Assembly: GCF_039830145.1 (NCBI RefSeq)
Contig: NZ_CP156082.1
Coordinates: 948,001-1,012,000 of the forward strand
Reading direction: 5' to 3'
From: Croceibacterium sp. TMG7-5b_MA50
Lineage (GTDB): Bacteria > Pseudomonadota > Alphaproteobacteria > Sphingomonadales > Sphingomonadaceae
Length of the DNA: 64,000 bases
Shown here: positions 41,498-50,418 of the stretch, piece by piece
Position numbering within the stretch: the stretch's first letter is position 1
Layout: the number at the start of each line of letters is the position of its first letter
Program-made: the position numbers and the translations under genes
The notes under the pieces: model-generated
What the model was told of the DNA's origin: nothing
The model's input: the letters and a program-made list of their open reading frames with translations, nothing else
The model's database searches: none

Positions 41498-41662
41498 ATG
41501 ATCCTCTACCGCTTCATCACCCGACATCGCACCGGAAAATGGTACGCTGACCTGCGGACCGCGCAGCTTCGCGCCAACGCGATCGGGGCCGGGTTCCTCG
41601 ACCCCGCCGGCCACTTCGTCCCCTATCGCGGCACCGTGCTGGAGATGCGCCGGGCGGACTAG
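41498..41662 (+). CDS. Small basic hypothetical protein
   Basis: 54 residues, MILYRFITRHRTGKWYADLRTAQLRANAIGA..., no known family. Codon use is strongly GC-ending at third positions, as in genuine genes here, which supports coding. The ribosome site is weak; a start at 41471 (9 residues earlier) is possible. Its stop shares a CTAG with the stop of the S9 peptidase (overlap 4 bases), so the genes converge tightly. Confidence 0.6.
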   Translation: MILYRFITRHRTGKWYADLRTAQLRANAIGAGFLDPAGHFVPYRGTVLEMRRAD

Positions 41663-43643
41663 GTCCCCGGCGCCATTGCGGACAGGAAGCTGTCGATCCG
41701 TTGCAGCATGTCGGTGCGTTTGGCCGGCTGATCGATGAAGTGGTCAAGTCCGGCATATTCGACATAGTCGACCGGCTTACCCGCCTGCCGCAGCGCCCCC
41801 GCCATCGACCGGGAATGGCCGACATCGACATTCTCGTCCACCGTGCCGTGGAACAGCAGCACCGGTGCGCGGAAGCCGTCGGCATGCCGCGCGGGCGACC
41901 CGGCGGCGACATGCGGGCCGGTGCCGATGAAGTCGCGCACGATGCGGAAAGAGGTATAGGTGCGCGCATCTTCCTGCAGCCGCGCCAGATCGGTCACGGG
42001 TGCGATCGCCACGATCGCGCGGAACAGGTCCGGTTCCAGCGCGGGCGATTGCAGGGCGGCATACCCGCCATATGACCAGCCCACGATCGCAAGCCGGTCA
42101 GCCCGCGCGACACCCGTCTCCACCAACCAGCGTCCCGCGGCGTTCACATCGCCAACGGCCGTCTGCCACGACTGGAAGCCGTTCTGCTGGAACCATGCGC
42201 TGCCATATCCGGACGATCCGCGGAAGTTCGGCTGCAACACGGCATAGCCGCGATGCACCAGGTACTGCACCAGCCAGTCGAAGCCCCATTCGTCACGCGC
42301 GCTCGGCCCGCCATGGGGCAGTACGACGGCCGGCAGCCCGGTGCCATCACTGCCGGGTGGCAACGTTAGATACGCCGGGATCATCGTGCCGTCCGCCGCC
42401 GGATAGCTGACCGGCTTCATCGTGCCCATCGCCAGGCCCGCCAGTTCTTCCCGCATGGGCATCACCTCGGAAAGCTGGCGGGTCGCCTTGTTGAACAGGT
42501 AGACCTTGCCCGGATCGACATCGCTGCTGGCGATCAGCAGCAGACGGCTCTCATCCTCGCTCGCATCGACCACCTCGATCAGCGGCGTGCCCGGCAAGGC
42601 CGCGCGCAGCGCATCCATCAACCGTCGCAGTTCGGGATCGAACAATTCAAGCTGGCGCTTCTCCGTCGCGTAGCCGGCACCCACCACACGGCCACCATCG
42701 CCCAGGCGGATCAGCTGATCGACGTCGCTTCCAGGCTGCGCCAGAAGCATCTTGCCCGCGCCGGTCCCATCCAACGCGACCGAAAACAGTGCATCGTTCC
42801 CCTCATGCTCGCCGAAGCCGTAGGCTATGTCCGCCGCGCCATCCACCGCGATCGGCACGAAGTCGGCCGGCGCCCCGGCACCCAGTTCAAGCGGGCGCCA
42901 GCGATCCTCTCCCTTGAGACGGAACTGGTAGCGGCGGATGCCTTCCCGCACAAGCCGGTTCCGGTCATCTCCCGGTCCCTGACCAGCCTCACGGCGCCGT
43001 TCTCGTCGGCCAGGTACCACTGGGCCGTACCGCGCGACGGCTCCGTACGGCGGCGGCGCATGTTCGACAGCTGGATCGTCTCCGCCCCCAGACCTTCCCC
43101 CGGCCCGCGGATATTGCTGCCGGTGGTGCTTTCTTCCAGATTGTAACGGGTAAGCAGCACGGTGTCGGGGCTTTCACCGGCGACCTTCCATGACAGCACC
43201 TCCCCACCATCCTGGTGCAGGCCGATCGCGCGCGAGGATTGGCGCGCGGTCAGGCTTTGCATGCTCCCGCTTTCGACATCGACGGACACCAGCCGGGTGA
43301 AGCCGATCAGCAACCCGGCATCGGCGCTCGTACCACGCAGGGTGCAGATCAGGTGCCGTTCGCCTGCCCAGTCGCACTGGCGCAGATCGGTAAGCGGCCG
43401 ATCGTTGCGCATCGCGGCGGACCAGCCGGGCTCCGCCGCAGAAAGGTCGCTGACCAGCACCACTTCGCCATCTTCGCCTTCCGGCGCCACCAGCACGATA
43501 CGGTTGCCGGATGGCGACAGCTTGGCATCGATCACGCCGGCACGCGCGCCGAAGCGTTGCTCCAGCGATGGCGCGGCATCTTGCGCCATCGCCGGCTGCA
43601 CCACCGCGGTTGCCGCCAACAGCGCGGCCATGATCCTGTTCAT
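41659..43643 (-). pseudogene. S9-family prolyl oligopeptidase, frameshifted
   Basis: Two overlapping frames together make one S9 peptidase of about 660 residues. The first part (from the ATG at 43643, signal peptide LLAATAVVQPAMAQ, beta-propeller domain) is in one frame; near 42,950-42,955 the similarity moves to the other frame, which carries the catalytic domain: Ser in GWSYGGYAAL, Asp in HGTVDENVDV, His in GLDHFIDQ. Restoring one G in the minus-strand cttgtg would join them. No slippery heptamer is seen, so it is either a recent mutation or a sequencing error. The catalytic half lacks its own ribosome site. Confidence 0.85.
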
Positions 43644-43860
43644 GTGTATGAATTCCCGTCCCTGAGAGCTCAATCTATCCGCCGTCACGGACAGTGCAAG
43701 CCCGTCAGGCGCGCAGGTCCGGTAGCGATCACAGTGCGCCGGCGCTGTCCTACATCGCGCACGTCTGCCATGCGCAGGTCATGGCCCATCCACTGCTCAC
43801 CGCCGGCTCCGCTGCTCGCCTGACCGGCACCAGCCCGATGCCTCACCTTCTGCGTTTAAG

Positions 43861-43894: not shown

Positions 43895-45016
43895 TCACCC
43901 GCGCAGGTAATTTCGGCGGAACTCCGCCGCGAACTCCGCGAAGCGGCCGGCGGCGATCGCCTCCCGCATCGCGGCCATCAATTGCTGGTAGAAGGCCAGG
44001 TTATGCTCGGTCAGCAGCATGGCCCCCAGGATTTCGCCCGACCGGTGCAGGTGATGCAGATAGGCGCGGCTGAAGCGTGATGCATCGGATACGACCCGCT
44101 CGTCCACCGGCCGCTCATCCTCCGCATGGATCGCATTGCGCAGGTTGATCGGCCCGTTCCAGGTGAAGGCCTGCCCATTTCGCCCCGATCGCGTCGGCAG
44201 CACGCAGTCGAACATGTCGACCCCGCGCTCTACCGCGCCCACTAGATCGTCGGGCTTACCGACGCCCATCAGGTAACGGGGTCGATCCGCCGGCAATTGC
44301 TCCGGTGCGAAGTCCAGCGTGGCGAACATCGCCTCCTGCCCCTCGCCCACGGCCAGCCCGCCGATGGCATAGCCATCGAACCCGATCTCCCGCAGCGCCG
44401 CTGCCGACCTGGCCCGGAGCCTCTCGTCCAGCGCACCCTGCTGGATGCCGAACAAAGCCGCCCCCGCCGCATGCTCACCCCCGGCATCGAAGGCATCCCG
44501 GCTGCGCCTGGCCCAGCGCATCGACAGTTCCATGCTCGCCTCGATCTCCGCCAGCGGGCGATCGGCGCGGGGACATTCGTCGAAGCACATCACGATATCG
44601 CTGCCGAGCAGGCGCTGAATCTCCATCGACCGTTCCGGGCTGATGAGATGCTTCGACCCGTCGAGATGGCTGCGGAAGGTGACGCCTTCCTCCGTCAGCT
44701 TGCGCAGGGCGGCAAGGCTCATCACCTGGTACCCGCCGCTGTCTGTCAGGATCGGGCGGTCCCATCGCATGAACCGGTGCAGCCCGCCCAGTCGGGCGAC
44801 CCGCTCCGCGCCGGGGCGCAGCATCAGGTGGTATGTATTGCCCAGGATGATGTCCGCGCCCGTCGCGCGGACGCTGTCCGGCTTCATCGCCTTCACCGTG
44901 GCGGCGGTGCCGACAGGCATGAAAGCCGGAGTGCGGATCTCCCCCCGGCGCATGGTGATCGTGCCGGTGCGGGCACGCCCGTCCGTGGCATGGACGGCAA
45001 AATCGAAGCGGGTCAT
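43895..45016 (-). CDS. tgt: tRNA-guanine transglycosylase (Tgt) lacking zinc cysteines
   Basis: Exchanges G34 for preQ1 in GUN-anticodon tRNAs; works before QueA, whose gene is in this window. 373 residues, normal length. The general-base aspartate D92 ([11 protein letters not shown]) and nucleophile D270 ([14 protein letters not shown]) are present. The structural zinc site, C-x-C-x2-C plus a later His, is altered: the Cys positions read R307, V309 and A312 (ERVVSDAS), and only the His (H338, TEHN) remains. The surrounding SRAYLHHL segment is intact, so the loss is specific. The start ATG at 45016 has no alternative of note. Confidence 0.93.
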
Positions 45017-49389: not shown

Positions 49390-50418
49390 CTACGGCAGCA
49401 GCAGCGAGGCATCACCGTAGGAATAGAACCGGTACCCCTCCGCAACCGCATGCGCATAGGTCTGCTGCATGCGCTCCAAGCCCATCAGCGCGCTGACCAG
49501 CATGAACAAGGTGGAACGCGGCAGGTGGAAGTTGGTCATCAGGCCATCGACCGCCCGGAACGTATAGCCCGGCGTGATGAAGATCGACGTGTCTCCGGCG
49601 AAGGGCTGGATCGTGCCGTCGGACCCGCACGCGCTCTCCAGCAGGCGAAGAACGGTAGTGCCGACCGCGATCAGCCTTCCCCCGGCTGCGCGGACGGTGT
49701 TCAACCGATCCGCCGTGGCGGCATCAATCCGGCCCCATTCGGCGTGCATGGTGTGGTCGGCGGTGTCGTCCGCCTTGACCGGCAGGAAGGTGCCGGCGCC
49801 AACATGCAAGGTCAGGGTCTCCCGGCTCACGCCTGCCTCGTCCAGCGCGGCCAGCAGTTCGGGGGTAAAGTGCAATGCCGCGGTCGGCGCGGCGACGGCG
49901 CCGTCTTCCCGTGCGAACATCGTCTGGTAATCGGTTCGATCAGCCTCGTCAGTGGCGCGCTTGCCGGCGATGTAGGGCGGCAGCGGCATGCGGCCGGCAC
50001 GTTCCAGCAACACTTCCACCGGCTCCTCACCCGCAAAGTGCAGCGTCCAGCTACCATCGGGATGGCGCTGCTCCGCGCTGGCGGAGACGTCTGCCGGGAA
50101 CGCGACCACGTCACCTTCGCGCAGCCGCTTGCCATTGCGGATGAAAGCTTGCCAGCGGCGCAGGTCCAGTCGCTTGTGCAACGTGGCCCCGATGCGCGCG
50201 TCGCCTCGCGTCCCTTCCAGCTGCGCGGGAATGACGCGGGTATCGTTGAAGACCAGCACGTCGCTCTTGCGCAGGGTACTTGGCAGGTCCCGCACGCTCC
50301 GGTCTTGGAAAGGCTTGTCGCCCTCCACCACCAGCATCCGCGCAGCATCACGCGGGCGGGCCGGTCGCAGCGCGATCAGTTCTGGCGGAAGCGCGAAGTC
50401 GAACAGGTCGACACGCAT
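49390..50418 (-). CDS. queA: tRNA preQ1-34 S-adenosylmethionine ribosyltransferase-isomerase
   Basis: Transfers the ribosyl group of SAM to preQ1 at the wobble base, giving epoxyqueuosine. 342 residues. Start [29 protein letters not shown] and later [20 protein letters not shown] and [16 protein letters not shown] are the family signatures. It acts after Tgt, whose gene lies about 4.4 kb away on the same strand. Followed upstream by a cyclophilin gene. Confidence 0.96.

Follow-up and report, generated by a model that had tools for sequence, protein, structure and literature searches.

The tgt locus

The window, i.e. the whole 64,000-nucleotide stretch of DNA that was analysed, comes from Croceibacterium sp. 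TMG7-5b_MA50. It carries an intact gene for the tRNA-guanosine(34) transglycosylase (Tgt). The features that matter here are the following, with positions counted along the window and the evidence in brackets.

43895..45016, minus strand: tgt, tRNA-guanosine(34) transglycosylase, 373 aa, intact (open reading frame, TIGR00430, PF01702)
44741..44743, minus strand: Asp92, counterpart of the catalytic Asp102 (alignment; kept in 134 of 134 tabulated rows)
44207..44209, minus strand: Asp270, counterpart of the nucleophile Asp280 (alignment; kept in 134 of 134 tabulated rows)
44072..44131, minus strand: rapidly changed loop, residues 296-315, the former zinc-Cys segment, one codon shorter than in same-genus species (dN, identity)
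44081..44098, minus strand: codons 307-312, R V V S D A, free of Cys, where relatives have R-C-x-C-x2-C (MAFFT and HMMER alignments)
44003..44005, minus strand: His338, retained, corresponding to His349 of Z. mobilis, the fourth zinc ligand (alignment)
49390..50418, minus strand: queA, retained (PF02547, 405 bits)

The protein matches the TIGR00430 equivalog model with 464.3 bits, above the curated cut-off of 306.75, and PF01702 with 500 bits. The catalytic Asp pair (Asp102 and Asp280 in Zymomonas mobilis) is present as D92 and D270. The idea that there is a paralogue, a second tgt copy, was ruled out, since the window tgt is the single PF01702 match in its own 3.24-Mb genome.

A nearby prolyl-oligopeptidase-family (S9) gene (41659-43688, minus strand) is seemingly split over two overlapping frames, through a frameshift or a sequencing error. 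The frame at 42825-43688 has no Pfam match and that at 41659-43020 matches Peptidase_S9; they overlap at about 42.83-43.02 kb. The tgt loci of the two genus mates closest to the window, about 3 kb each, gave no match to the S9 peptidase.

Loss of the zinc-binding cysteines

The first-pass annotation of this DNA had claimed that Tgt has lost its three zinc-binding cysteines, and had read the lost positions as R307, V309 and A312. The loss itself is borne out. The last cysteine of the protein is C271, in the catalytic stretch, with none further towards the C-terminus, therefore C-x-C-x2-C is absent under any gap placement; the alignments agree. Where a zinc-binding Tgt has C-x-C-x2-C and a His, the window Tgt keeps a sole ligand, His338. 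The alignment also confirms that H338 and the catalytic D92 and D270 are retained, as the annotation had said.

The placement of the lost residues is only partly right. It is what a fixed offset to the Zymomonas numbering gives, for which we, like the annotation, take the zinc ligands to be C318, C320, C323 and H349. We rejected this register, as V308 aligns with the first Cys in both MAFFT and HMMER. In the two nearest relatives the segment is D-P-R-C-x-C-D-x-C, which makes R307 the Arg preceding the first Cys; V308 stands in the place of that Cys, and the first position was off by one. With one residue fewer in the loop, the other two positions shift according to where the gap is set: the MAFFT register gives V308 for the first Cys (C1), S310 for the second (C2) and a gap between A312 and S313 for the third (C3), whereas HMMER alignment to the Z. 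mobilis chain gives V308, V309 and A312. Measured against the former pattern, D-x-R-C-x-C-x2-C-x2-[YF], the window loop lacks one residue and all three cysteines.

Comparison within the genus

Five genomes of the genus were available, including that of the window, and four of these have a readable tgt. The other three (G001, G002 and G004) keep CxCxxC and the His, which is the outcome of the alignment with close relatives that the annotation had proposed as a check. No tgt match was found in the fifth genome, G003, which is 77% complete.

The window Tgt shares 90-91% amino acid identity with its two nearest genus mates. Against its closest relative, L028, just 8 of 20 residues are identical in the block 301-320, while other blocks have 16-20 of 20 and the C-terminus 10 of 14; residues 321-340 are identical throughout (20 of 20). 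At the nucleotide level there are about 27 base differences in 20 codons between window and relative, plus one in-frame codon deletion. The dN against L028 is 0.54 in residues 296-315 and 0.045 in the remainder of the gene. That said, species with the cysteines also have a fast loop (L028-L033, dN 0.53), and the contrast between the loop and the rest is thus in part ordinary. In a test for a compensated frameshift, free nucleotide alignment of the loop scored 38 with L028 and 41 with L032; a single codon gap scored 33, and the codon-shuffle maxima were 31 and 30.

The annotation had also proposed that dN/dS be measured. Outside the loop the gene is under purifying selection, with ratios of 0.073 (window-L028) and 0.076 (window-L032), compared with 0.041 for L028-L032, both of which have the cysteines. 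The ratio on the window branch is thus somewhat raised (0.07 versus 0.04), which we count against the explanation that we favour below.

When the loop and the His column are left out, the tree groups the window with three cysteine-bearing rows in a starred four-row set (SH-aLRT 98); closest to it are the genus mates L028, L032 and L033. This nesting among cysteine-bearing species means that the window case is most simply a loss. The queA gene has the same strand as tgt and lies upstream of it; the gap between the two matches is 4.4 kb here and 4.8-4.9 kb in G001 and G002, and the similar spacing argues for vertical descent of the locus. On these comparisons the loss of the zinc ligands looks recent, and would have followed the split from the sampled genus mates.

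Triad-less Tgts in other bacteria

The window is not alone. Among the relatives, 54 of 59 genomes had a match and 53 were scored; eight of them, the window included, lack the C-x-C-x2-C triad. The one left out, family member L053 (G011), has tgt spread over three reading frames in a genome that is 86% complete and 7% contaminated. An order-wide sample gave matches in 285 of 296 genomes, from which counts were taken for the best 30 loci and are hence lower bounds. Within these 30, the 12 best scores to a profile of the Cys-less loop all belong to Tgts without the triad, again including the window, and seven of the 12 are all the f6 genomes drawn. The same 30 loci include L083 (G305, genus g54), with an SxCxxS zinc segment and full loop length; it adjoins a cysteine-bearing row (L076) on the smaller of our trees, as another, partial loss.

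A class-wide sample (Alphaproteobacteria, as we infer from Sphingomonas and Paracoccus as best named matches and from the roughly 70% identity to Z. mobilis) gave matches in 134 of 144 genomes, and 135 Tgt rows from the 133 genomes other than the window's. The triad is present in 107 of the 135 rows and absent from 28, which come from 27 of the 133 genomes. These 28 have one loop Cys (19 rows), none (six), two (two) or three in another spacing (one, L349); the last may have kept zinc binding. One genome of the class, G342, has two Tgt-family genes (L313 and L357), neither with C-x-C-x2-C, and L357 is a divergent paralogue. The Tgt of L338 (G359) has an in-frame TGA in a 1.0-Mb genome, through an alternative code, an error or a pseudogene.

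Further afield, a scan of the genome collection for loops shorter by one residue gave at least 115 stretches. The 111 Tgts among the matches listed comprise 73 with C-x-C-x2-C, 29 with no loop Cys, eight with one Cys and one with three in another spacing. Those without loop Cys, among the matches listed, come from Gordonia, Segniliparus, Acidimicrobiales, Chloroflexota, Verrucomicrobiota, Planctomycetota and Pseudomonadota, and triad-less Tgts are found beyond the window's class in Chloroflexota, Actinomycetota, Verrucomicrobiota and Planctomycetota.

On a tree of 223 rows (222 of them different) the triad changes state 28 times, and at least 16 of the changes are forced by starred branches; the direction of change is not given by the tree. 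This tree keeps only seven of the at least 115 stretches from the shorter-loop scan and omits L001, L062, L053, L054, L357, L175, L147, L153, L171, L159, L123, L193, L126, L194 and L142. The smaller tree omits L001, L062, L053, L054, L193, L126, L194 and L142, and keeps one in six of the cysteine-bearing scan rows. The best reading of these distributions would be that the window loss is one of many independent losses in bacteria. Triad-less Tgts of other groups are still under selection: median pairwise dN/dS is 0.16 for the f6 Tgts, and 0.19 for triad-less versus 0.12 for cysteine-bearing f1 Tgts, rough values, as dS is near saturation.

Many of the altered loops are alike. Among the rows read, the pattern D-x-x-[VIL]-x-[SN] before [FYW]-[ST]-R-A-Y occurs in f6, most Chloroflexota, Verrucomicrobiota and Gordonia rows. 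The recurrence of similar short loops, that of the window included, suggests that they converged on a single solution. There are Cys-free loops of other kinds, e.g. those of L138, L147, L152 and L171, with Thr or Ser at C1.

Conserved residues and predicted structure

Loss of the triad tends to go together with loss of the zinc His. In the class-wide sample the His is kept in 107 of 107 rows with C-x-C-x2-C and lost from eight of the other 28 (Fisher p 1.4e-6, relatedness ignored); the 223-row set has it in all 169 cysteine-bearing rows and in 37 of the 54 triad-less ones. When relatedness is allowed for, 16 independent pairs give on average 2.9 changes in the same direction versus none in the opposite one, which is non-significant (median p 0.25).

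Phe92, Trp326, Tyr330 and His333 form the TGT dimer hot spot, according to the accessible text of PMC5395182; the window counterparts are F82, F315, Y319 and H322. Both catalytic Asp residues and the equivalents of Phe92, Tyr330 and His333 are present in 27 of 27 triad-less rows, with the paralogue L357 left out. In many rumen and gut alphaproteobacterial MAGs (L088-L202) the C-x-C-x2-C is often kept, with one residue fewer after the third Cys; these Tgts have Leu or Arg at the Trp326 position, which is aromatic in most relatives.

Modelling of the structure was another check named in the annotation. AlphaFold2 predicts for the window Tgt a TIM barrel with the C-terminal subdomain, with a mean pLDDT of 89.6, about 95 over residues 291-330, and a pTM of 0.91. 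The ten best solved matches are all Z. mobilis TGT or its mutants (TM-score 0.95-0.97, rmsd 1.5-1.9). A cysteine-bearing control, L178, with the same sequences in the alignment, was modelled about equally confidently, and the lowest pLDDT of both models is in the block 91-100, near the catalytic loop. The fold is thus confidently predicted, but as the control looks alike the model indicates compatibility and is not proof of metal-free stability.

The queuosine pathway

QueA acts on preQ1-tRNA, the product of Tgt. QueA and QueC are present in all 16 genomes searched, 13 of which, the window's included, have a Tgt that lacks CxCxxC. The retained QueA and QueC, along with the purifying selection, suggest that the window Tgt carries out the exchange of G34 with preQ1.

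A further case is that of Sinorhizobium meliloti. In strain Ak57 (CP090106.1) the Tgt segment reads DEQSSCPATRDYSRAY, i.e. SxCxxT, with SWNN at the expected zinc His; three of the four ligands are gone, including the His, now Asn, and the middle Cys remains. The Tgt records of Methylobacterium bullatum, Sinorhizobium sp. K101 and Shinella have neither triad nor His (K101 has Ser there), while those of Paracoccus ferrooxidans and Sphingomonas parapaucimobilis keep the triad. Published genetics of S. meliloti 1021, as far as the accessible text goes, has Tgt needed for the use of preQ1 and a queA mutant with little or no symbiotic phenotype; the main text of that paper contains no occurrence of zinc. 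Taken together, the sequence of Ak57 and the genetics of 1021 indicate, by analogy between strains, a working Tgt without the standard zinc site. The Tgt of Bartonella henselae (UniProt A0A0R4J8M4) gives partial complementation of an E. coli tgt mutant with preQ1, according to the available part of PMC11570991.

Discussion

Several explanations of the window Tgt compete, among them an error of sequencing or assembly. The annotation had named relatives with the cysteines, together with a local sequencing error, as grounds for withdrawing its claim. The species is represented by one genome, and the apparent split of the S9 gene points to a single-base error or a real frameshift close by. The relatives do keep the cysteines, yet the many base changes and the in-frame deletion of a codon, with the frame kept, exceed any single error, and the same kind of loop occurs in other lineages; we regard an error as extremely improbable. 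The annotation had further suggested either a zinc-free, re-stabilised fold or a decayed but still open enzyme. Early decay, with Tgt activity no longer selected and the zinc site the first to go, would account for change concentrated at a site reported to be needed in E. coli (PMC9508795, citing Chong 1995), and for a dN/dS outside the loop that is somewhat higher than in the cysteine-bearing pair. However, that ratio is still 0.07, the frame is intact, the catalytic and interface residues are kept, and so are QueA and QueC. Moreover, triad-less groups keep a near full-length Tgt (seven of seven f6 genomes drawn, and the Hyphomicrobiales records), with a median dN/dS of 0.16 in f6. Decay is in our view very unlikely. 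The zinc-free fold has in its favour the frame, the selection, QueA and QueC, the dimer residues, the predicted fold, the recurrence and the S. meliloti genetics.

There are two further alternatives. Gene conversion, by which the loop was imported from an already Cys-less Tgt and not changed stepwise in place, fits the return to full identity in residues 321-340 and the likeness of the window loop to those of other Cys-less Tgts (C1 is V, C2 is S, and one residue is missing), as well as the RPVD that it has in common with L043. It has no donor, though: among 109 segments of equal length, DNA identity over residues 296-315 reaches 53% at most, which does not surpass the 56-60% that the two nearest cysteine-bearing genus mates show over 301-320. 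The loop also evolves fast where the cysteines are kept. We think an import of this kind unlikely, if conceivable. A metal might also be bound through other ligands, i.e. His338, acidic or Ser side chains, or across the dimer. His338 and acidic residues in the loop are indeed at hand, but no Cys is left in the loop, and eight of the 28 triad-less rows have lost the His too, as expected without metal; we give this proposal little chance.

In our preferred reading, which we consider quite probable, the window gene is a working bacterial Tgt without structural zinc, whose loss followed the split from its genus mates and was one of many. We infer that the enzyme would exchange G34 for preQ1 in tRNAs with GUN anticodons, while its C-terminal subdomain would do without a structural zinc ion. 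The segment that once supplied three of the four ligands has been rebuilt, with the loss of one residue and three cysteines, and the following helix with the aromatic dimer hot spot (F315, Y319 and H322) is kept. Packed without a metal, the loop probably still positions this helix to take part in dimerisation and in the binding of tRNA. A zinc requirement for TGT activity is described in the accessible text of PMC9508795, citing Chong 1995, and what could be seen of PMC6165067 calls the zinc domain a TGT hallmark; given the published requirement, loss of the site could lower activity.

We lean, with less assurance, towards a broader view, that zinc-free Tgts form a large and functional class that evolved repeatedly and is found in about a fifth of the class-wide genomes and in several other phyla. 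If this is true, the zinc of a textbook metalloenzyme is a replaceable scaffold. Many bacteria would have uncoupled this queuosine step from their zinc supply, often via the same short loop, in which C1 is hydrophobic, C2 is Ser or Asn and one residue is missing. Repeated natural loss of the site with the queuosine pathway kept makes the role of zinc (in stability, dimerisation or tRNA binding) directly testable, and the window species and its cysteine-bearing genus mates, at about 90% identity, are a closely matched pair for experiments. There is also a bearing on the design of inhibitors against the Tgt dimer interface. Annotation databases may already mark the Tgt zinc site as conditional. 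Among the papers listed in our searches we found no report of Tgts without the zinc site, which is weak evidence, as the search was of partial texts and subscription literature lay largely outside it.

Comparison with known systems

One of the closest known systems is Z. mobilis TGT (PDB 1PUD and others), which is like the window Tgt at 68-70% identity and a TM-score of about 0.96, and has the catalytic Asp pair and the dimer hot-spot helix in common with it. It differs in its three zinc cysteines, where the window Tgt has none and a loop one residue shorter. The S. meliloti Tgt has lost the zinc site as well; unlike the window Tgt it has a full-length loop, with the middle Cys kept and the His lost, and those of Methylobacterium, K101 and Shinella are similar. 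The Cys-free Tgts of f6 (from the same order), Gordonia, Chloroflexota and Verrucomicrobiota resemble the window in their shorter loop and mostly hydrophobic C1, but on the trees they are not its sisters, the nearest rows to the window having the cysteines.

For other enzymes, Zur-linked paralogues are known, some without zinc motifs (e.g. FolE2 and DksA paralogues), as the accessible text of PMC2770081 describes; Tgt does not occur in its main text. Such zinc-independent paralogues have lost their ligands with function thought to be kept, as we propose for the window Tgt. The difference is that Zur-regulated pairs include a second, zinc-binding copy, whereas the window genome has none. Evolution may here have spared zinc by changing the sole copy of the gene, as opposed to placing a second copy under Zur control.
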